From the NCBI GenBank assembly GCA_027023425.1, contig JALVVL010000007.1, positions 1 to 64,000 of the forward strand: a stretch of DNA of 64,000 nucleotides, given 5' to 3'. The translations under genes were made by a program, and so were the position numbers. The first letter of the stretch is position 1, and each line of letters starts with the position of its first letter. Shown here in pieces: positions 20,066 through 35,453 of this stretch. The notes beneath the pieces were generated by a model. The model made no database searches. It was not told where the DNA came from and saw only the letters and a list, made by a program, of their open reading frames with translations. Source of the DNA: Anaerolineales bacterium. Lineage in GTDB: Bacteria > Chloroflexota > Anaerolineae > Anaerolineales > DRMV01.

Positions 20066-20145
20066 AAATTGCGAATTGCGAGTTGCGAATTGCGCCTTAA
20101 TACCTTAGTACCTCAATTCCTTAATCCCTCAATCCCTTCTCCCTC
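20066..20145. repeat. GCGAATTGCGAGTT and CTTAGTACCTCAATTCC word repeats
   Basis: Directly after the lipoprotein stop come units of a 7-bp word (TTGCGAA/TTGCGAG), then ACCTCAATTCCTTAATCCC words. These run to within a few bases of the mtaB start and leave no separate ribosome site except CCCTCCC-like sequence. The same words recur at 42356-42421 (first type) and at 1851, 5327, 5716, 25048 and 47312 (second type). Confidence 0.8.
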
Positions 20146-20147
20146 CC

Positions 20148-21455: not shown

Positions 21456-21735
21456 CGCAAAGACGCAGAGGAAACAGAGACGCAGAGAGAAAAACCACAG
21501 ATTACACAGATTAGCACAGATTTTTCTGCGTAATTTGTGAAATCTGCGGTTTATCCCAAATCTAATCGGTGTAAATCTGTGCCAATCTGTGGATGGTAAC
21601 GCAGAGCCGCAGAGGAACACAGAGGCGCAGAGAGAAAAACCACAGATTACACAGATTTTTCTGCGTAATTTGTGAAATCTGCGGTTTATCCCAAATCTAA
21701 TCGGTGTAAATCTGTGCCAATCTGTGGATAAAAAC
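21412..21735. repeat. Intergenic word-repeat cluster overlapping the mtaB 3' end
   Basis: CGCCAAGGACGCCAAAAAAA words begin inside mtaB. They are followed by TTAACGCAAAGACGCAGAGG and two near-identical blocks (about 21500-21605 and 21633-21735) made of CCACAGATTACACAGATT, TTCTGCGTAATTTGTGAAAT and CTAATCGGTGTAAATCTGTG. The block ends about 20 bp before the HIT-gene ribosome site. No gene is present. Confidence 0.85.
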
Positions 21736-21766
21736 TCAATCGGTTGGCACCCCAAAGGAGGCTGTG

Positions 21767-24940: not shown

Positions 24941-25200
24941 CGCCAAGGGCGCCAAGGACACAAAGGACGCCAAGAATTAACGCAAAGGCGCAAAGAGAGT
25001 GACGCCAAGGACGCCAAGGAACGCAAAGGCACAGAGGGACACAAACTCTCAATTCCTTAATCCCTCATTCCCTCATTCCTTCCCGCTTTCTGTGTCTTCT
25101 GTGGTTTACGCTTTTGCTCTACCTACGATGCAACGACCCAACGACCCAACGACCCAACGACCTAACGACCTAACGACCCAACGACCTAACGACCTAACGA
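24898..25200. repeat. Intergenic word-repeat cluster joining recD2 to yvcK
   Basis: CGCCAAGGGCGCCAAGGACA words start inside recD2 and run to about 25040. CTCAATTCCTTAATCCCTC words (25045-25080) follow, then about eight units of AACGACCCA/AACGACCTA (25128-25200). The last unit ends a few bases before the yvcK start, so no Shine-Dalgarno is present there. No gene is seen in the gap. Confidence 0.85.
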
Positions 25201-25204
25201 ACTT

Positions 25205-26509
25205 ATGAACAAATGGCATTCCTTCTGGCAAAAAGTTGCGATGTGGTTCACGCCGGGGCTGGGGGTTAAGCGCTGGCTGGGATTTGTGATTTTGGGCACA
25301 ACCCTGCTCGGCGTGGGCTTTGCAATGCTGTTGCTGCAGGTTTACCGCACCGCGCCTGACACTTGGTGGCTGCCGTTGCTTTCGGCGGCGTCGCTACGGT
25401 TTTTACCACGCCCCCTGCGCGCACTCATCTTTGCCGCTCTGGGCTTTACCGCCATCGGCATTGGCCTCTGGGGGCTGAGCCACTCATTGCTCGCACCGTT
25501 TTTACGTCCGGGGCAACAAGTGGTAGAAATGCTGAGCGCCTATCGGCGGCGCGAGCGCGGTCCCCACATTGTCGCCATCGGCGGCGGGCATGGGCTTTCT
25601 ACGCTGCTGCGCGGCCTCAAGGAACACTCCCATAACATCACCGCCATCGTCACCGTTGCCGACGATGGCGGCTCTTCAGGCCGTCTGCGCAAAACCTTGG
25701 GCATTTTGCCCCCGGGAGATATTCGGAATTGCCTTGCTGCCCTTTCCAACGATGAGGCTTTGCTCACCCAGTTGTTTCAGTACCGCTTTGCGGACGACTA
25801 CGGCGAACTCGGCGGGCATTCGTTCGGAAATTTGTTTATCTCGGCAATGACCGCGCTCACCGGCAGTTTTGAAGAAGCCGTTGCCGAGGCCGGGCGGGTG
25901 CTGGCTGTGCACGGCCGGGTTTTGCCTTCAACGCTGAAAAACGTGCACTTGGCGGCTGAGGTTGCCTTGCCATACCAAAATGAAGGCGTGCGCGTGGTCG
26001 GCGAAAGCCGCATCCCCACAATGCCGGGGCGAATCAGGCGCGTGTGGCTGGAGCCTGAACACCCCCCTGCTTTCCCGCTGGCGGTGCAGGCAATTTTGGC
26101 GGCGGATTTGGTGGTGGTTGGCCCCGGCAGCCTCTACACCAGCATTTTGCCCAACCTGCTGGTGCCCGAAATTGCCGCGGCACTGCGCGCCACACGCGCC
26201 TTCCGCGTTTTCGTCTGCAACGTCGCCACACAGCCCGGGGAAACGGACGGTTTTTCTTGCCAAGACCATCTGCGCGTGCTTGAAGAGCATGTAGGGCATG
26301 GGCTTTTTGATGTTGTGCTGACCAACAGCGATACTTCCGCCTCGCTCCCCCAAGGCGTGAATTGGGTGCTTGTGGATGGCGAGGAAACTTCCCCCTACCG
26401 AATAGTGAGCCGGCCAGTGGCTTCGGATGAGCATCCGGGGCGGCACGATGCCCGCTCTTTGGCCTCGGCGCTACTCCAATTGTGGGAAAACTACGCCTCG
26501 CGGCGGTGA
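25205..26509 (+). CDS. yvcK: YvcK/CofD-family gluconeogenesis factor with N-terminal membrane segments
   Basis: YvcK proteins bind UDP-sugars and are needed for growth on gluconeogenic carbon and for wall integrity; the fold is shared with the CofD lactyl-phosphate transferase. Two membrane segments (about 24-46 and 72-98) precede the soluble domain. That domain shows VAIGGGHGLSTLLRGLK (125-136 for the glycine core), TVADDGGSSGRLR, LPPGDIRNCLAAL, GHSFGNLFI and GPGSLYTSILPNLLVP. The translation start directly follows an ACGACCTA repeat and lacks a ribosome site, so this start may be inefficient. The end overlaps the convergent methyltransferase gene by 19 bp. Confidence 0.92.
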   Translation: MNKWHSFWQKVAMWFTPGLGVKRWLGFVILGTTLLGVGFAMLLLQVYRTAPDTWWLPLLSAASLRFLPRPLRALIFAALGFTAIGIGLWGLSHSLLAPFLRPGQQVVEMLSAYRRRERGPHIVAIGGGHGLSTLLRGLKEHSHNITAIVTVADDGGSSGRLRKTLGILPPGDIRNCLAALSNDEALLTQLFQYRFADDYGELGGHSFGNLFISAMTALTGSFEEAVAEAGRVLAVHGRVLPSTLKNVHLAAEVALPYQNEGVRVVGESRIPTMPGRIRRVWLEPEHPPAFPLAVQAILAADLVVVGPGSLYTSILPNLLVPEIAAALRATRAFRVFVCNVATQPGETDGFSCQDHLRVLEEHVGHGLFDVVLTNSDTSASLPQGVNWVLVDGEETSPYRIVSRPVASDEHPGRHDARSLASALLQLWENYASRR

Positions 26510-27306
26510 ATTTCAAAAAAGTGCCATACAAAGCGCCGCGTATCTTGCAGGGGGGCGTTGAGGTTGCCAAAAAATTCCGTAGCGGCGCGCTCCAATTCCG
26601 CAATTATTGCAACGTGTTCCTCGTCCGGCAGCCCCCAATACGGGGTGAACAGCCGCTCGGCGGCGCTGCGCAATGCTTCAGCAGGCGAAATGACGCCTTG
26701 CCATTGCGCCGCTATCACGATGTGGGGCGGGCCAAATTTTTGCCTCAGCGCGGCGACAATTTGCGAATGGCGACGCCACATCGGGCGGCTGAGGTCGTAG
26801 CCGCGCGCGGCGAGTGCCCGCCGCCAGTTCTCCAGCACCCAGCCTATGGGCGAATCGGCCTCGTGCTCAATGTAACCGAGCGCGAAAAATCCACCATTTT
26901 TTAGAACGCGCTCAATTTCCTTTATTGCCGTCGTCAAGTTTTCCACGAGATGGAGGGTGTGCACGCTGAAAGCGCTGCCGAAAGCCGCGCTCCGAAACGG
27001 CAAACGCATGGCATCGGCCTGCACCAGCAGAGGGCAGGCGCTTTTCTGCGCGCATTTGCCGAGAAGGTGGCGTAACATTTCGGCGGATAGGTCGGCGGCA
27101 AAGACGCGCGCCCCCCGCTCCGCCAACGGGATGGCAAACCTGCCGCTTCCGGCGCCCAAGTCAAGCATTGCGTCGCCAACGCCGATTTTTGCGAGCAGGT
27201 GCGCCACAATGGCTTCTTGCACGCCGTCGGGCAGGCCGCGGGTCCGGTCGTATTGCCGAGGGTCTTTGTGGTAAGCCGTGTCTTGTTTGGGGAAGTGCTT
27301 GCTCAT
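26491..27306 (-). CDS. Class I SAM-dependent methyltransferase
   Basis: 271 residues. The Methyltransf_11-type fold has motif I as MLDLGAGSGRFAIPLA (about 47-62), an acidic residue after strand 2 (FAADLS), then VQADAMRLPF and a post-motif block (HLVENLTTAIKEIERVLKNGG). The substrate cannot be read; the family includes small-molecule, quinone and protein methylases. The start overlaps the upstream PLD-like gene stop by four bases (ATGA), showing translational coupling. The 3' end overlaps yvcK on the other strand. Confidence 0.88.
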   Translation of the reverse strand: MSKHFPKQDTAYHKDPRQYDRTRGLPDGVQEAIVAHLLAKIGVGDAMLDLGAGSGRFAIPLAERGARVFAADLSAEMLRHLLGKCAQKSACPLLVQADAMRLPFRSAAFGSAFSVHTLHLVENLTTAIKEIERVLKNGGFFALGYIEHEADSPIGWVLENWRRALAARGYDLSRPMWRRHSQIVAALRQKFGPPHIVIAAQWQGVISPAEALRSAAERLFTPYWGLPDEEHVAIIAELERAATEFFGNLNAPLQDTRRFVWHFFEIHRREA

Positions 27307-28400
27307 TGGCCGGATTGCCTGTGCGCGGCTTTATAAATTCGCCAAAATTCGTCGGTGAATTGCCGTGCCGCCGCCGCATCGTCTAGTAGCACCATGTTTT
27401 CATCGTTGCGCTCTTCGGCGCTGTAGGTGAAATTGTAAGAGCCAAACTCAACCACTTCGCCGTCAATGATGAAAACTTTATGGTGCATGGCGTAAGGGTT
27501 GGCGTCAAGGTAAACCGGCAAACCGGCGCGCTTCAGCCTCAGATACTGGGTATTGCGGTTGCTGTGGAATTGGTCTTTATCCATCACGCCGCGCACATCC
27601 ACCCCCTCTTTTGCTTTGGAAATTAGCAGGTACGCCAATTCATCATCGGTAAAACTGAAAGCAAGGAAATAAATGCTTTGCTTTGCATGCCGCACGGCGG
27701 TAAGCAGGTGCGAAAGAGCGTGGTCTTCGGGTGCGAAAAACACTCCCAGCGGATGGCCGTTCAGCACAATGTTGGGATAGGGGGTGTTCGCGGGCGAATA
27801 TTCGCCGAAAAGCCTGCGAGAAAACATTTCCTCAAACTCGGCTTCGTAATCGGCGGCGACCCGCGCCGAGCGCAACCGCACTTCGTTATTGTTGTTGCGG
27901 TAAACGCCGCTGAGGGTGTAGTTCATTGAACCGGTCCAGACCTCGTAGCGGTCAATCACAATGAATTTGTCGTGCATGAGTGGGCGGCGGTTATCGCCCA
28001 CAATCGGTATGCCCGCGGCGCGCAGGGCTTTGAACTCAGGACGGTTGAGGTGCGCCGATTCGGCGACAATCCGCACCTGCACGCCGCGGCGGTGGGCGCG
28101 GATGAGGGCGTCGCGAATGCTCCAGAGGTTGAGGTCGTAGAGCGCGGCGTCCACGCTTTGCTTTGCACCGTCAATCGCATTGGCGACCTGCGCGTCCACG
28201 CCGCCGCGCAGCGTGCGCGCCTGTGGGGTGTTGGGCTTAGTGAAGAAAACCGCCACCCAATCCGCCGAAGCGCCAACGGTGGGGGACGGGGCGGTGGTTG
28301 GCTGAGGGGAAATTCCTTGCGATGGGGCACACGCGCCCGCGAGCGCGGCAAGCGCAATCGCCGCGACGAGCAAAAATGCGAATCCGGAGGTTTTGGGCAT
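27303..28400 (-). CDS. Exported lipoprotein with two PLD-like HKD motifs
   Basis: A 365-residue protein with signal peptide and lipobox (LAGAC). Two phospholipase D half-sites follow: MHDKFIVIDRYEVWTGSMNYT and MHHKVFIIDGEVVEFGSYNFT. Each carries HxKxxxxD and a downstream GSxN, the full catalytic set for a PLD-superfamily phosphodiesterase. Family members act on phospholipids or nucleic acids; Nuc-type PLD nucleases have one motif per chain and this has two. The location outside the membrane fits lipid or extracellular DNA cleavage. It is coupled to the methyltransferase gene by a 4-bp overlap. The upstream gap is repeat-filled. Confidence 0.9.
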   Translation of the reverse strand: MPKTSGFAFLLVAAIALAALAGACAPSQGISPQPTTAPSPTVGASADWVAVFFTKPNTPQARTLRGGVDAQVANAIDGAKQSVDAALYDLNLWSIRDALIRAHRRGVQVRIVAESAHLNRPEFKALRAAGIPIVGDNRRPLMHDKFIVIDRYEVWTGSMNYTLSGVYRNNNNEVRLRSARVAADYEAEFEEMFSRRLFGEYSPANTPYPNIVLNGHPLGVFFAPEDHALSHLLTAVRHAKQSIYFLAFSFTDDELAYLLISKAKEGVDVRGVMDKDQFHSNRNTQYLRLKRAGLPVYLDANPYAMHHKVFIIDGEVVEFGSYNFTYSAEERNDENMVLLDDAAAARQFTDEFWRIYKAAHRQSGQ

Positions 28401-28421: not shown

Positions 28422-28960
28422 TGTTAGGTCGTTAGGTCGTTAGGTCGTGGGGCGTTGAGTCGTTGAGTCGTTGAGGCGTTGGGGCGTTAGGTCGTTGGGT
28501 CGTGGGTAGAGCAAGAGTGTAAACCACAGAAGGCACAGAAATACCACAGAAAACACAGAAAATTACAGCGGACACAGAAATTTTTCCTTATGCGTCTCTG
28601 TTTCCTCTGCGTCTTTGCGTTCCTCTGCGTCTCTGCGTTACTTCCTTGGCGTCCTTGGGGTCCTTCCGCAAATCCTAAATCGCTAATCTTCTCATCTGTG
28701 CTAATCTGTGTAATCTGTGGTTTTTCTCTTTGCGCTCTCTGCGCCTCTGGGCGAGGCGATGCCTCGCCCCTACTCTGCGCCTCTGCGTTTTCTTGGCGTC
28801 CTTCGTGCCCTTGGCGCCCTTGGCGTCCTCATCCGCCAATTGACACAGATTTGCCCCGATTGGATGGTTGAAACCGCAGATTACGCAGATTCCGCAGAAA
28901 AAATCTGTGTAAATCTGTGTAATCTGTGGTTTTTCTCTTTGCGCCTTTGCGTTAATTTGT
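28422..28960. repeat. Intergenic word-repeat cluster
   Basis: The 551-bp gap between the PBP-like gene and the lipoprotein is mosaic: nine or so TCGTTAGG/TCGTTGAG units (28425-28503), AACCACAGAAGGCACAGAAA and related words (28520-28590), CTTTGCGTTCCTCTGCGTC and CCTTGGCGTCC words (28595-28830), then ATTGACACAGATTTGCCCCG and CTGTGTAAATCTGTGTAATC words up to the stop of the PBP-like gene, which they supply. No gene is present. Confidence 0.85.
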
Positions 28961-31702
28961 GCTTTCAACCGGCACCAGCATTTCGGCGTCGGCGCGGTTG
29001 CCCGCGGCGTCGGTTGCCGTCAGGCGCAGGCGAATTTGCCCGCGATGCATCGGCACGGCAAAAATGTAGGGCGGCGCAACCAGCGTGCCGAAGGGCTTTC
29101 CGTCCACGCTCAGGCTCACCGAAGCCAAGCGTAGGTCATCCTCAACTTCGGCGCGCACGATGAGATAGCCGCCGCGCCGAAATTTCACCTTTTCGCCTGC
29201 CCGCGGCGAGCCAAATGCCACCCGCGGCGGCTCATTGTCCACCGTCACCTGAAGCGATTGCGAGCGCAAAGAGCCGTCCTTGGCCGTGACCAGCAATTGC
29301 AGGGTGTAAAGCCCGCTCAGCCCCGCGGTGTCCCATTCCCCCAATTTGCCGTTCGCAACCGGGGAATTGCCCTGCGCGATGGTCGTCCACTCGTGCGGGT
29401 TCACACCCGCACCGGCTTGCAAAATGTAGTGGGCAAAATTCGCCCCCGCGGCTGTGCCGACGACGGCTACCTTGCCGCGCACATACGCAAGGCCCCGCGG
29501 CGCCGTGATTTGCACCCCTGCCGCTTTGGGCGGCGGCACGATCAAATCATATTCATCCGGTGGAAGCGGAAGCCCCGCCTGCTTAGCCCATGCCCGCGCC
29601 TCCGGCGGAACGTGCATGTAAACCTGATCTTCAATCAACTCCGGCGGCGTGAAAGCGGTCGCCAGCAATCCCGTTTCTTTGTCAATCGGCACGCGGCGGA
29701 AGAGCGTGTCGGGCGATTTGGGCTCGTTGCCGCTCAGGAAGACCTCTTCAACCCAGTTGGGGCAATCAGCGGTCGGGAGCATACCCGAAGGGTCGCAAAC
29801 GGTAACGACCGAGACGTTTGCGGGCTTGCTCCAGCCGTTTTCGGCGGAAGTGAAGGCGGTGCGCGCCAAGGCGTGCCAATAAGCCAGCGCCGCCTGTTCG
29901 CTTTGGGCGGGCTTACCACCGCGGGCATAAACCACAACCAGCCGATTGGGGGTTGCGCCCGCCACCCAAACGCCGCCGTCGGGCGCGCGCCCGATGTGGC
30001 TCGCCACGGGTTTGCCAATTTCAAGTTGGTTTGGATGCCCAAGCGATTGCCACTTTGCACCTGTATCGGCGAGCACGTTCACCACGAGGTAGGAAACCCC
30101 TTCGCCGAGCACCCGTCTTTCCACCGGGCGGGGGGCTAAGCGGAGGTTTTGGTCGGCGTCCACCGCGCGGCGCACAACTTCGGGCTGGAGCGAGCCGCCC
30201 GCGCCCAAACCGCGCCAGTCCCCCAGCGCGGCGAAAATGCTGAAGGCATGAGCGGCTTGCAGGATGTTGAGCGGAACGCCGCCGAGCAGGGCATCGTAGC
30301 CGTGCGGGCGGGAGGCGAGTTGGGGCAAGCCGAGGTGCGCGGCGGTAGGCCAAACGGTGTCGGCGCCGAGTTGGGCGAGCAGGTGCAGGGTGGGTACGAG
30401 GTAATCGTTGGCGAGCGCAAGCCGCAGGCGCATCGGCCCGTGAAAGCGCCCATCAGGGTTGGCGGCGTCTATGCCCTCGGGGAGCGCCGAGGGCACATCC
30501 CACGTGAGCGTGGCGGGCGAAAAGCCGCGCGTGAACGCCACTGCGTAAACCCACGGGGCGAGGAATGTACCCGCTTCGTGCGGCGGCAGGTCGTTGGGCG
30601 AAACTAATGCCAGCACCGCGCTTGTTTTCACATCCAGCACCGCGGCTTCAAGTTGGGCGTTGGGCGGGAGCGGGTTGGCAAGCAACGAAGGCGGCAAAAA
30701 GCGCGCCGCGGGACAATGCGTGGGCGAAAGGTCGGCTTTGAGCACGGCAGAGCGCAGGCATTCGGCTTGCGATTGGGTTTGGAAGTCAAGCGTGGTGAGC
30801 ACGTCAAGCCCGCGGCGGGGGAAATACCAGCCGAGTGCGGCGAGTTGCTTTTGGGCGAGCAAAAGCGCAGCGGGGGGCGGCGCGGGGCGCTTGGTGGGCT
30901 TGGGAATTTTGGTCAGCGCGGTTTGGGCTTGCGGGGCGGTTATTTTCGCCGCGGCGAGCATCCGCATTATCAGCGCTTGGCGGCGCTGGTCGGCGAGGCT
31001 CGGCGCATCCCACGGGTTGATTTGCGGCGATGGCAGAACGGCGGCGAGCAGGGCGGATTCGGAAAGGCTGAGTTTTTGGGCGGGCTTGCCGAGGTAAGAA
31101 CGGGCGGCGTCGTCTATCCCCACAATGCCATTGCCGAAATCGGCAGTGTTGAGATACCACTCCAGCACGCGGTTGGCGCCGTAGTCGGCGAGCATTTGGG
31201 CGGCAAGCAGGCGCGCGCGCAGCCTGCGGCGGAGCGAAGGGCGCTCATCGCGCAAAAGCAAGCGCAGGGCAAGTTGCTCGGCTATCGTTGGGGGGAAGCC
31301 GGTCTGCCAAAATTTGCCGCGGTAGGGCTGGTCGGCAGGGGTTTCGGGCTGGACGGCGGTGAGCACCGCATCGGGTACATAGCGCGGCAACTCGGTGAGC
31401 GAAACGGCAGAAATGGGCGGGGTTTTGCCCAGAGGGTGCTCGCCGTCGGCAAAGTAATAGCGTGTGGGGTGAAGGAGCAAGCCGTTGGGCGCATCCAGCA
31501 GGGGCGGCAGGGCGGCAACCGAGGGTAAGCGCGCCGTCAGGTAGGCGTAGCCCAGCGCCGCGGCCAAGGCGGCGATTGCCGCTAACATGCCCATTCCAGC
31601 AAGCAGGGCAAGCCCCCAGTGCATAAGCCGCACGCTTGGCAGGGAACGCTCACGCTTTTCCCGCCGACGGCGCAGGCGCAACACTTTTGTCGTCTTTAGC
31701 AT
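28952..31702 (-). CDS. Class A penicillin-binding protein homologue with degenerate catalytic sites
   Basis: 916 residues in class A PBP layout: basic N-terminus, one membrane helix (about 28-54), glycosyltransferase-51 region (about 95-270), transpeptidase-like region (about 300-610) and Ig-like C-terminal domains. The GT51 EDRxFxxH motif is missing (VQPETPADQ), with Q118 about where the catalytic Glu should be. GGSTITQQ reads GFPPTIAEQ, and only the second Glu remains (E181, VLEWYLN). In the transpeptidase region the expected GSSFKP reads GTFLAP (T379, A382), SxN is NDY and KTGT is KPVAS. It probably has neither activity and may be a scaffold. The stop codon lies in repeat sequence. Confidence 0.85.
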   Translation of the reverse strand: MLKTTKVLRLRRRREKRERSLPSVRLMHWGLALLAGMGMLAAIAALAAALGYAYLTARLPSVAALPPLLDAPNGLLLHPTRYYFADGEHPLGKTPPISAVSLTELPRYVPDAVLTAVQPETPADQPYRGKFWQTGFPPTIAEQLALRLLLRDERPSLRRRLRARLLAAQMLADYGANRVLEWYLNTADFGNGIVGIDDAARSYLGKPAQKLSLSESALLAAVLPSPQINPWDAPSLADQRRQALIMRMLAAAKITAPQAQTALTKIPKPTKRPAPPPAALLLAQKQLAALGWYFPRRGLDVLTTLDFQTQSQAECLRSAVLKADLSPTHCPAARFLPPSLLANPLPPNAQLEAAVLDVKTSAVLALVSPNDLPPHEAGTFLAPWVYAVAFTRGFSPATLTWDVPSALPEGIDAANPDGRFHGPMRLRLALANDYLVPTLHLLAQLGADTVWPTAAHLGLPQLASRPHGYDALLGGVPLNILQAAHAFSIFAALGDWRGLGAGGSLQPEVVRRAVDADQNLRLAPRPVERRVLGEGVSYLVVNVLADTGAKWQSLGHPNQLEIGKPVASHIGRAPDGGVWVAGATPNRLVVVYARGGKPAQSEQAALAYWHALARTAFTSAENGWSKPANVSVVTVCDPSGMLPTADCPNWVEEVFLSGNEPKSPDTLFRRVPIDKETGLLATAFTPPELIEDQVYMHVPPEARAWAKQAGLPLPPDEYDLIVPPPKAAGVQITAPRGLAYVRGKVAVVGTAAGANFAHYILQAGAGVNPHEWTTIAQGNSPVANGKLGEWDTAGLSGLYTLQLLVTAKDGSLRSQSLQVTVDNEPPRVAFGSPRAGEKVKFRRGGYLIVRAEVEDDLRLASVSLSVDGKPFGTLVAPPYIFAVPMHRGQIRLRLTATDAAGNRADAEMLVPVESTN

Positions 31703-31717
31703 GGGGCAATTGTAACC

Positions 31718-31999
31718 CTAATTCGGCAAACTGGTTTTGCTCCCTCGCAGTGCGCAGAAGTAGTACACCGTTCCCCCTACCAGAATTGCGAGCCGCCAAG
31801 CGTGCAGCCAGCCCGCGCTCGGTTGAGCGTCAAGGGCGCTTACCCCAAAATCAAAGAAAATACCCCACAAGATTGCCGACGCAATTACCACAAGCAAATG
31901 GTATTCTTTGTTGCCCTCTCGGGAAGTCTTGCGCCCTAATTGCATCAACACCACCAAAATGACAAAAGCGGCAAGCGTTGCGTAGTCGGCCTGTGCCAT
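31718..31999 (-). CDS. Small membrane protein of unknown function
   Basis: 93 residues with about three hydrophobic segments (6-21, 33-53 and 66-84). There is no recognised domain. AGGAGG lies five bases before ATG 31999. It sits between the LCP gene (20 bp upstream) and the PBP-like gene (15 bp downstream), so a wall-related context is likely, but the sequence itself gives no function. Confidence 0.75.
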   Translation of the reverse strand: MAQADYATLAAFVILVVLMQLGRKTSREGNKEYHLLVVIASAILWGIFFDFGVSALDAQPSAGWLHAWRLAILVGGTVYYFCALRGSKTSLPN

Positions 32000-32018: not shown

Positions 32019-33470
32019 CTATGGCGAGCACTTTATTCCTTTCAACCTTTTGCTCTTTGCCCAGTCGTTGCCGAGCACAATGACCAGATCGGCTGGTGGC
32101 TGCGCAGACGAAATGTAAAACACCCGCTCTTCGGGCACGTTCATCAGCCGCATTAGGTAGGTCAGGCTGTGTCTTTTAGGGGTGTAGTTGCGTATTTCGG
32201 TTTTGGAGGTTAGGTTTTTGGCGTTGCCGGTTTCAATTTGGGTGAAGCCCTGCTTTTTCAAAAGTGCGGCGGTGCGGCAAGCAAGGCCGTTCACCGTAGT
32301 GCCGTTGAGCACAATCAGGTGCGGGTTTTCGGCCACTGCCGCGGTGCGCAAGGCCTTCAAGTTGGGCGTGGGCGTTACGGTGATGCCGGAAGGCGGCGTG
32401 GGACTTGCGGTGGGTGAGGGTGTTGGCGTTGGCTTGGGCGGGTTGAACACACGGCTTGCCGCCGCGCGGATGGCTTTGATATCCGGCACCAGAATGTACA
32501 TTCCTTGCGGCGTCATGGTGGCCTGCGCCTCTTTTTGGTCTATCACCACAAGGTGGACACGCGAGCGCGGCACTTCGGCGGCCAAGCGCGCCAGCCGCAG
32601 GGCATCTTTTACCGAAATGTCGGTATGCAGGCTGTCTTTGAGTTGGACGGCCAGAATTGGGGCTTTGACGGTGAGTTCGGCCAAAACTTTCGGGTTTTTG
32701 AGGCGTTCCAGCACGCCTTCCAGCACCTGTTGCTGGCGCTCCATGCGCCCGAAATCGCCGTTGCCGCCCACCGAGCGGTTGCGAGCGTATGCCAATGCGA
32801 GGTCGCCCGGCAACACTGTGACGCCGGGGTAAAGGGCATGCAGGCGGCGCGTGCCGTCCGGCTCAAAAACGTCCAGCGCCATGCGATGACGCACATGCAC
32901 TTTTACGCCGTGGATGGCATCCACAAATGCGATGAAGGCGCGGAAATTCACCACAATGTAATGGTGGACGGGGACGCCGAGCAGTTGCCCCACGGTTTTC
33001 ATTGCCAGCAGCGCGCCCTGCCCCTCGCCTAGGTATGCTTCGCCGAGTTGGTAGGCTTGGTTGAGTTTGTGGTAGCCAAAGCCGGGGATGTTCACCCAAA
33101 GGTCGCGCGGCAGCGAAATTGCCCCGCCGCTCATGGTTTTTGGGTCTAATGTGAGCAAAATGATGGTGTCGGAGCGCGGCGCGCCCCAGTTCTTTTCCCA
33201 CGGGCGGTCATCAACCCCCAAAAGGAGCACGTTGATGCGTTCCTTGCCGTCCCACGGCGGGGGAAGGGCTAATGTGGGGCGGGGTGTTGTGCCCGCGCGC
33301 ACATGCGCGGCTTTTGCCGCGAAAACTTGCTTTATCAGCAGCACCCCAGCGAGCAGAATCAGGGAAATGCCGAGGATAAAGCCGCCGATGAGGAAGGTTT
33401 CAATGCCCAGCCGCGGCGGGCGCGTTCTGCGGCGGGGACGGCGTGGGGGAAGGTAGGGTGAGTTTGCCAT
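32019..33470 (-). CDS. LytR-CpsA-Psr (LCP) family wall polymer transferase with LytR_C tail
   Basis: LCP enzymes move teichoic acid- or capsule-like polymers from lipid carriers to peptidoglycan. After a basic N-terminus and one membrane segment (about 27-50), the LCP domain has NVLLLGVDDRPWE, RSDTIILLTLDP, SLPRDLWVNIPG, KLNQAYQLG and ALAYARNRSVGGNGDFGRMERQ. The C-terminal LytR_C domain (about 385-475) shows IVLNGTTVNGLACRTAALL. A Pro/Thr linker separates them. Located next to the PBP-like gene, this fits a wall-assembly locus. Confidence 0.95.
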   Translation of the reverse strand: MANSPYLPPRRPRRRTRPPRLGIETFLIGGFILGISLILLAGVLLIKQVFAAKAAHVRAGTTPRPTLALPPPWDGKERINVLLLGVDDRPWEKNWGAPRSDTIILLTLDPKTMSGGAISLPRDLWVNIPGFGYHKLNQAYQLGEAYLGEGQGALLAMKTVGQLLGVPVHHYIVVNFRAFIAFVDAIHGVKVHVRHRMALDVFEPDGTRRLHALYPGVTVLPGDLALAYARNRSVGGNGDFGRMERQQQVLEGVLERLKNPKVLAELTVKAPILAVQLKDSLHTDISVKDALRLARLAAEVPRSRVHLVVIDQKEAQATMTPQGMYILVPDIKAIRAAASRVFNPPKPTPTPSPTASPTPPSGITVTPTPNLKALRTAAVAENPHLIVLNGTTVNGLACRTAALLKKQGFTQIETGNAKNLTSKTEIRNYTPKRHSLTYLMRLMNVPEERVFYISSAQPPADLVIVLGNDWAKSKRLKGIKCSP

Positions 33471-33496: not shown

Positions 33497-34129
33497 CTAT
33501 GCCGCGGCGGGAACGACCTCATTCACTGCACGGAGCACGGTCATCAGGCGAGCGTCGTCGCGGAGCAGGTTGATGAGGGCGTGCAGGGCTTCGTTCAGCC
33601 AGTTTTCGTTGCCCGCGGCTTTGTGCGCTGCGGCAGCGCGTTTGAGGTGGACGGCTATCATTTCCGCAACGGGGGCGTCGTCGGCGCGGAGCATGTGGCG
33701 CAGGTAGCCCCAGCCGCGCGAGGTGAATTCGCGCACCTCTTCGGGCGAGCAGGTGTAAAGGCGGGCGAGGGTCAGCGGCGGGCGCGGCGGCAGTAGGTAC
33801 GAAATTTGCCCTTCTTTCGTCTTGTGCCCCAGCACCAGCACTTCAATTTGGATTGGCAGGTTGCGCTGATGCTGGTCGGAGTAGATGCTTTCCTCAATTT
33901 GGTCAAGCGGGGCTATGCTTTCCACCAGTTGGTCGCTCCGCAGGCGGATTTGCGAAATGATGCCGTAAATTTGGGTAGAAGGGGCGGCCTGCGGGGCTTT
34001 TTCGGCCGCGACGCGCACCAACGAGCCAAACGACAGCGCGCTTTGCTCTAAGCGCGACACGCGGCTTCCGACCCAAAAGCGGGTTGCGGTTGCTTCAAGC
34101 ACGCGTCCTACAAATTCTGCTTGTGGCAT
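33497..34129 (-). CDS. HAS-barrel-like protein adjacent to NurA
   Basis: The N-terminal part (FVGRVLEATATRFWVG ... SFGSLVRV ... QIYGIISQIRLRSD) resembles the HAS barrel found at the N-terminus of HerA-type DNA translocases. The C-terminal half (SPEEVREFTSRGWGYLRHM onward) is helical. There is no Walker A motif in the 210 residues, so it is not HerA itself. It begins 15 bp after the NurA gene with GAGG six bases before ATG 34129. The likely role is an accessory to DNA-end processing with NurA; the HAS assignment is by motif shape only. Confidence 0.6.
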   Translation of the reverse strand: MPQAEFVGRVLEATATRFWVGSRVSRLEQSALSFGSLVRVAAEKAPQAAPSTQIYGIISQIRLRSDQLVESIAPLDQIEESIYSDQHQRNLPIQIEVLVLGHKTKEGQISYLLPPRPPLTLARLYTCSPEEVREFTSRGWGYLRHMLRADDAPVAEMIAVHLKRAAAAHKAAGNENWLNEALHALINLLRDDARLMTVLRAVNEVVPAAA

Positions 34130-34144
34130 GGTTTACCTCGGTGG

Positions 34145-35392
34145 TCAATGGTTGGCGGTAAGGTCTTTCAAAATTTGTTTAGCCGAGCGGCTGCCGAGCG
34201 GCACGTTGTTTTCGGCGAGTGCGCCGGTGAGCCATCTTTCAACCGTTTCGCGGTCGCCGCGGCGCACCACGGCTTCTTCGTGGGCGCGGTGCAGGATGTA
34301 GGGGTAGGGGGCATTGGGCACGTGCCGCGTCTGCCACAGCAGCGCGGCGTGCAGGGTTTGCACCGCCTTGGGGTCTTTTGTCACCCACGCGGGGATTTCC
34401 ACGCGGGCGATGGCGGCGCGCCCCGTTGTAGGCGAGGCGTTGAGGTAGAAAAAGTGCAAGGCGAGGTCGCCGGTGTAGTCCTCACGCGAGCGCGAAACAA
34501 GGCGGAAGATGGCCGAGCGCTCGCCCGGGGCGAGCAAGCGGCGGAAAAGCGCGGCGTCGCTGATGGCGGCAAAGCGCGGCGGGCGGCGTTCCAATTCCGC
34601 TTTGATTTGCTCCGGCGTTGCGGTTTCGCCGATGGCCGCGAGCCTGAGCAATTGCACTACCGGGTCGGCGTGGGGCTTATCCACATAGCCGGCGGTGAGC
34701 ACCGCGGGCGGCGCTTGCCGGTGAGCGGCAAGCAGTGAGTGCAGGCTTTTCAGGTATTCCTTCAGCGCTTCAGCAAAGCCGCCTGTGGCGTCTTTCGCAC
34801 CCCAGAGTTCCAAGGGCCCGTCGGTGAGAGTGACGACGGCTTCGGGCTGCGGAAGGCCGTCCATGAGGTCGCGCCATTCCTGCTCGGCTTTTGGCTCGCC
34901 TTGCCACGCGGCAACGGCTTTGGCGAGAGCCTGCCGCTCGGCGAGGTCGCGCTGGAGGGGGATGTCGGGGCGGTTTTCAAGCAGGGTTTCGGGGTCGTAA
35001 AAGCGGCTTTCAATGAGGGTGCGCGGCGTCTCATGCCCTGCCATCACGACCACGCCCACATTTACCAAAGCGTAAAACAGCGCCCCGTGCGGGTTGGGCT
35101 CAATTTGGGAGCCGTCGGCGGCTAAAAACAGCACCCGCTCGGCGCAATTTTCGGTCGGCGGCGGTGGGAATGTGGCGTTTATCGGTTCTTCGGTGGGCGC
35201 GGCGAGGTGCACATAGCTGGCGATTTCGGCGGCTACGGCGACGCGGTAGCGCAAGTCCTCGGCTTTTTCGCCCCAGCCGTGCAGAAGTTCCAGTGCCTTT
35301 TCTTGCTGTTTTTCGCGCTCGCGCTTGAGCCGCGCCGCACCGCTGGCGAAGTTTTGGATTTCGCGAAACACTTTGGAGTAATTCAGCGGCAT
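34145..35392 (-). CDS. nurA: NurA-domain nuclease
   Basis: NurA is a 5'-3' ssDNA/dsDNA nuclease partnered with the HerA translocase in archaea and some bacteria. The metal-binding motif is visible: FLAADGSQIEPNPHG (catalytic D93) followed by a strand ALVNVGVVVM. Later VVTLTDGPLELWG (second Asp) and AGYVDKPHADPVVQLL are also NurA-like. The N-terminal 45 residues form a charged helix. ATG 35392 was chosen because AAGG sits eight bases upstream; GTG 35401 in the same frame is less supported. Two DnaA boxes lie upstream. No HerA ATPase is in the window. Confidence 0.8.
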   Translation of the reverse strand: MPLNYSKVFREIQNFASGAARLKREREKQQEKALELLHGWGEKAEDLRYRVAVAAEIASYVHLAAPTEEPINATFPPPPTENCAERVLFLAADGSQIEPNPHGALFYALVNVGVVVMAGHETPRTLIESRFYDPETLLENRPDIPLQRDLAERQALAKAVAAWQGEPKAEQEWRDLMDGLPQPEAVVTLTDGPLELWGAKDATGGFAEALKEYLKSLHSLLAAHRQAPPAVLTAGYVDKPHADPVVQLLRLAAIGETATPEQIKAELERRPPRFAAISDAALFRRLLAPGERSAIFRLVSRSREDYTGDLALHFFYLNASPTTGRAAIARVEIPAWVTKDPKAVQTLHAALLWQTRHVPNAPYPYILHRAHEEAVVRRGDRETVERWLTGALAENNVPLGSRSAKQILKDLTANH

Positions 35393-35453
35393 TTCGTTCA
35401 CCTTCGGGGGAATCCCACGGTTTTCCCCCGTTTTCTACATTGTTTGCACAGAG

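Follow-up and report, generated by a model that had tools for sequence, protein, structure and literature searches.

A class A PBP homologue whose glycosyltransferase (GT) and transpeptidase (TP) sites both appear to be lost, and whose reading frame is intact, raises the question of what such a protein is kept for. The gene lies at positions 28,952 to 31,702 on the reverse strand of the window, the whole stretch of 64,000 nucleotides of Anaerolineales DNA analysed here. An earlier note on this DNA treated it as a single gene selected for a non-catalytic role beside an LCP protein and a small membrane protein. Selection for a non-catalytic role is borne out by the wide spread of orthologues with the same losses, by their intact reading frames and low omega values, and by a shift of conserved residues to a C-terminal module; the scope of the earlier reading, some of its motif columns and its genomic context have to be revised. 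Rather than standing alone, the gene is one case in an orthologous group that appears to have been inactivated repeatedly and is catalytic elsewhere.

Domain organization and identity of the protein

The frame is complete with its stop codon and encodes 916 amino acids, as expected from the intact 2.7-kb frame described before. A hydrophobic segment at residues 26–59 (31,526–31,627, reverse strand, as are all features of this gene), overlapping a helix modelled at residues 5–56, is probably an N-terminal membrane anchor. It is followed by a GT51 remnant at residues 95–265 (30,908–31,420), of which the second half is recognisable and the region of motifs 1 and 2 is shortened, and by a transpeptidase-fold domain devoid of catalytic residues at residues 346–620 (29,843–30,667). 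A conserved pair of cysteines, C315 and C330, is located in the linker between these domains. The remainder consists of a conserved C-terminal module at residues 630–735 (29,498–29,815) and two Ig-like domains at residues 738–912 (28,967–29,491); the second of these is Big_7, and most of it is missing in the orthologues of family f12.

The protein is identified as a class A PBP homologue by homology over both domains, by its TP fold and by its orthology to intact PBPs in phylogenetic trees. The PBP1A model TIGR02074 (PBP_1a_fam) matches residues 139–610 of the 916 (E = 2.5e-47) with a score of 161.9 bits against a curated cut-off of 508.75, which places the protein outside that family. The PBP1C model TIGR02073 scores 127.5 bits, far below its equivalog cut-off of 494, and the C-terminal Ig-like region matches BiPBP_C at 15.3 bits, below the 26.8-bit cut-off, so that the likeness to PBP1C/PbpC with BiPBP_C is weak; PBP1C is catalytic. 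Pfam Transgly matches with an E value of 4.8e-23, covering the second half of the model only, and the Pfam Transpeptidase model has no match anywhere in the protein. The predicted TP domain superposes on S. aureus PBP2 (VIA-align Z = 28.0, rmsd 3.1 Å over 306 residues). The full-length AlphaFold2 model, for which only the window and related-locus sequences served as input, is mediocre (mean pLDDT 61) and poor in its GT half. Of the two folds that the earlier note had proposed to confirm by structure prediction, the TP fold is upheld by the model.

Loss of both active sites

The motif columns were placed by alignment to intact orthologues, which are about 35–40% identical to the protein overall. 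Judged from this alignment, both active sites are destroyed and every catalytic residue is lost, in agreement with the central claim made earlier. The column of the first catalytic glutamate of GT51 (EDxxF) holds V117 (31,352–31,354); Q118, to which this glutamate had been approximately assigned, stands in the neighbouring Asp column. That of the second glutamate (RKxxE) holds A163 (31,214–31,216). GGSTITQQ is replaced by GFPPTIAEQ at residues 135–143 (31,274–31,300), as had been read, with FPPTIAEQ aligned at 136–143. In the TP domain, SxxK is replaced by T379-F-L-A382 (30,557–30,568), in the same columns as before. The SxN column is D433-Y-L435 (30,398–30,406), one column away from the NDY chosen earlier, and the KTGT column is H569-I-G-R572 (29,987–29,998); the KPVAS formerly equated with it lies about 6 residues upstream, in the RPAA segment. 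Relocation of the catalytic residues within the protein, which the earlier note had named as grounds for rejecting its reading, is rejected, as no other SxxK, SxN or KTG aligned elsewhere in it. With V117 and A163 in the GT51 glutamate columns and TFLA, DYL and HIG in the TP columns, the motifs are not those of a class A PBP enzyme. On this sequence evidence the protein is a pseudoenzyme, namely an enzyme homologue that has lost its catalytic residues and whose reading frame is kept by selection.

The closest comparison is with the active Anaerolineae orthologues (about 1010 amino acids; for example L066 and L138). They are the same gene by phylogeny and have the same domain order, the linker cysteine pair, the C-terminal module and the Ig domains, but all catalytic motifs are intact in them and all are lost in the window protein. 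The PBP1A family, including the intact class A PBP of the window genome (G000:C10), is homologous over residues 139–610 and has the C-terminal module in common with the window protein. However, G000:C10 is a paralogue of about 33% identity with intact motifs and without the linker cysteine pair.

Distribution of inactive orthologues

The orthologous group is usually single-copy per Anaerolineae (Chloroflexota) genome. A match is present in all 61 genomes searched, and the closest orthologues are 55–58% identical. The alignment comprised about 170 fetched family members, the majority of them from the class Anaerolineae. Motif-intact orthologues occur in most Anaerolineae families. Inactive orthologues, in which the GT site is lost in part or completely and the TP site is destroyed, occupy ten families (f1, f2, f5–f9 and f12–f14) within the window's order and are also present in f33, in f58 and in seven f46 genomes among those read. 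Orthologues with the same losses, for which a search of related Chloroflexota had been suggested, are hence widespread. No inactive copy was found outside the class: in other classes of the phylum all motifs are intact, in a thin sample of 13 loci.

The SxxK lysine, the SxN serine and the SxN asparagine are each absent from 80 of the 81 inactive orthologues aligned. The loss of the GT site is more variable than that of the TP site, because the first GT glutamate is absent from 57 of the 81 and both glutamates are kept in 17, by some clade-2 and f46 members. These members may therefore have residual GT activity. In f46, decay looks unfinished: the genome G223 retains the serine and SxN, with both lysines changed to glutamine, and G313 retains the SxxK lysine. 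Chance is excluded as the source of these losses by their recurrence across the 81 aligned orthologues. The same 81 rows likewise rule out a genome-specific loss or an assembly error.

A full-length member of the group was not found in G042, G281, G323 and G334 (all f13) or in G174 (f12), assemblies with a completeness of 95–97%. Some lineages thus seem to have lost the inactive gene, and this suggests that it is dispensable in places.

Repeated inactivation

The motif columns were left out when the phylogenetic trees were computed, which kept the inactivation trait itself from driving the grouping. A first small tree with a single inactive clade implied one change, and this single origin was overturned once more families were added. 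In the careful tree (84 rows, LG+C20 mixture), exactly three changes are required (bootstrap 5–95% range, 3–3), and they are forced by strongly supported branches. One is placed in the window's order, another in f33 and f58, which are sister to the intact families f57, f63 and f64, and the third in a subclade of f46 that lies within otherwise intact f46 genomes. One common origin for every inactive copy is rejected (AU p = 0.00017), and so is a common origin for the window's order and f33 plus f58 (p = 0.0101). The phylogeny indicates that the orthologue has been inactivated at least three separate times.

Selection and the shift in conservation

Inactive copies are evidently kept at full length under purifying selection. 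Omega in independent pairs of inactive orthologues ranges from 0.04 to 0.25 with a median of 0.157 (19 of 20 pairs with computable dS), as compared with a median of 0.126 in active pairs, and reaches 0.38 in a further set of overlapping inactive pairs; these values are approximate because the NG86 distances are saturated for some pairs. The dN/dS check proposed in the earlier note has thus come out in favour of selection.

The distribution of constraint along the protein differs between the two groups. The ratio of dN in the catalytic domains to dN in the C-terminal module plus the first Ig domain has a median of 1.20 in inactive pairs versus 0.66 in active ones (Mann-Whitney p = 9.5e-5). Positions conserved at 90% or more number 13 in inactive versus 55 in active orthologues for the GT domain and 18 versus 92 for the TP domain, whereas the corresponding figures are 24 versus 20 for the C-terminal module and 8 versus 8 for the first Ig domain. 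In the inactive proteins no other part is as well conserved as the module, whose conserved residues are C636, S639-G640, C647-P648, W705 and Y718-D719 and which contains the pattern CxxSGxxPxxxCP. It resembles residues 781–877 of a PDB entry called Chlamydia PBP1A (7u4h; E = 2.4e-4). Because the module is also present in the intact PBP1A paralogue and is similar to this stretch, it can be regarded as a general PBP accessory domain, and its role is not unique to the inactivated group.

Genomic context

The window genome encodes one intact class A PBP (G000:C10), three PBPs with a TP domain only and two SEDS proteins, and presumably makes peptidoglycan by the usual route. In a set of 44 genomes, exactly one weak GT51 match (54–113 bits) accompanies at least one intact match (at least 128 bits) wherever the orthologue is inactive. 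Where it is active there is no weak full-length GT51, the only weak match being a fragment of 145 residues. In G044 and G056 (f15), assemblies that are about 87% complete, the single GT51 found is the active orthologue of the window PBP, which appears to be their sole class A PBP.

In the window, the PBP gene is preceded on the same strand by a gene for a small membrane protein of 92 residues with no Pfam family (31,721–31,999), 18 bases upstream, and by that for an LCP protein with LytR_cpsA_psr and LytR_C domains (32,019–33,470), the three being about 18–20 bases apart. The earlier note had used this arrangement as evidence. However, the fetched stretches of about 4–19 kb show neither the LCP gene nor any other window neighbour next to the orthologues, and an LCP operon is rejected as the functional context. 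The position on the recN side recurs in six related genomes only.

Other features of the surrounding DNA were also observed. Downstream of the PBP gene on the same strand, an ORF for a secreted lipoprotein with PLD-like domains (27,303–28,400; PLDc_2, E = 6e-51) adjoins one for a class I methyltransferase (26,491–27,306). Intergenic direct repeats of 89 and 42 nucleotides, rich in AATCTGTG, are located at 21,515–21,738 and 28,694–28,944, one pair lying immediately downstream of the PBP gene. At 25,109–25,220, 20,096–20,147 and 25,040–25,091, the intergenic DNA carries tandem arrays with a unit of 8 bases (ACGACCYA; CTYAATYCC-like) together with related CGCCAAGGA repeats. A 210-residue ORF without a Pfam match (33,497–34,129, reverse strand) adjoins a NurA nuclease gene (34,145–35,401), and this region, 33,497–35,401, is a possible NurA/HerA-type locus.

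Possible roles of the inactive protein

The reading that we favour, with a probability of roughly 0.6, is that a class A PBP has turned into a pseudoenzyme that acts through its C-terminal module as a membrane-anchored scaffold or regulator of the cell envelope. The N-terminal helix would hold the protein in the membrane, the GT and TP folds would form a rigid extracytoplasmic stalk, and the function under selection would reside in the module (residues 630–735) together with the first Ig domain, which would bind a partner in the envelope. Candidate partners are peptidoglycan, another PBP, a SEDS enzyme, and a division or surface-layer component; the outcome would be scaffolding or regulation of wall assembly. 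If such binding were an ancestral second function of the enzyme, and catalysis were supplied by the other intact class A PBP, catalysis could be lost repeatedly.

The main rival assigns the work to the PBP folds themselves, through which the inactive protein would pair with the remaining intact class A PBP and regulate it allosterically. Pseudoenzymes often regulate an active partner. All of the inactive genomes that were checked encode one or more intact class A PBPs, and the TP fold is kept in the predicted model. However, conservation has collapsed in the fold domains and survives in the C-terminal module, so that an interface on the GT or TP surface is not favoured, and this explanation is possible but rather doubtful. 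It is improbable that the gene is simply a surplus duplicate drifting to loss. The apparent absence of the gene from several genomes of the inactive order, the faster evolution of the catalytic domains than in active orthologues and the half-decayed sites in f46 would be expected of decay, but nearly all of the 81 orthologues are full length with intact reading frames, omega is low at all divergences, the C-terminal module is conserved, and the inactive state is at least as old as an order spanning ten families.

Two further explanations are very improbable. In one, different residues have reconstituted the GT or TP site and provide a new catalytic activity; GT glutamate pairs do persist in 17 of the 81 rows, and the KTG glycine is kept in 35 of 44, but the replacements vary between lineages and no new polar residue is conserved family-wide in the former motif columns. 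In the other, the C-terminal module and the Ig domains tether the protein to the wall or S-layer as an anchor for peptidoglycan or surface glycans, with no regulatory role. This would fit the module being the selected part, and the C-terminal structure model matches Ig-type modules of cellulases, adhesins and an S-layer protein; however, these matches are generic, and Pfam finds no carbohydrate-binding family in the window protein.

Relation to known systems and implications

Precedents exist both for pseudoenzymes of wall metabolism and for non-catalytic PBP roles that are separable from the enzyme activity. The non-catalytic C-terminal PASTA domains of S. aureus PBP1 bind peptidoglycan and are required for septum progression apart from the enzyme activity (PMC9426605), but that protein is a catalytic class B PBP, whereas the window protein is an inactivated class A homologue. 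CwlM (PMC4946905) and Csd2 (PMC9507126) are wall-enzyme homologues with a regulatory or scaffolding role that needs no catalysis; they are homologous to hydrolases (amidase, peptidase), in contrast to the synthase homologue described here. The open-access papers searched yielded no account of a class A PBP that is inactive by nature, or of the recurrent inactivation of one.

For the annotation of Chloroflexota genomes, a GT51 match above cut-off overcounts wall synthases, because each inactive genome checked carries one such match whose role as a polymerase cannot be taken for granted. Whether class A PBPs serve bacteria solely as enzymes or are structural components of the wall machinery as well is usually probed with engineered point mutants. 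Anaerolineae provide a natural version of this experiment, with intact, half-decayed (G223 and G313) and fully inactive orthologues, and the natural series suggests that one particular conserved module is the non-catalytic part of a class A PBP. Somewhat better than evenly balanced is the broader proposal that, in this one Anaerolineae class A PBP, a catalysis-independent envelope function of the C-terminal module preserves the protein after both sites have been lost, and that at least three convergent inactivations would separate the enzymatic from the structural role.
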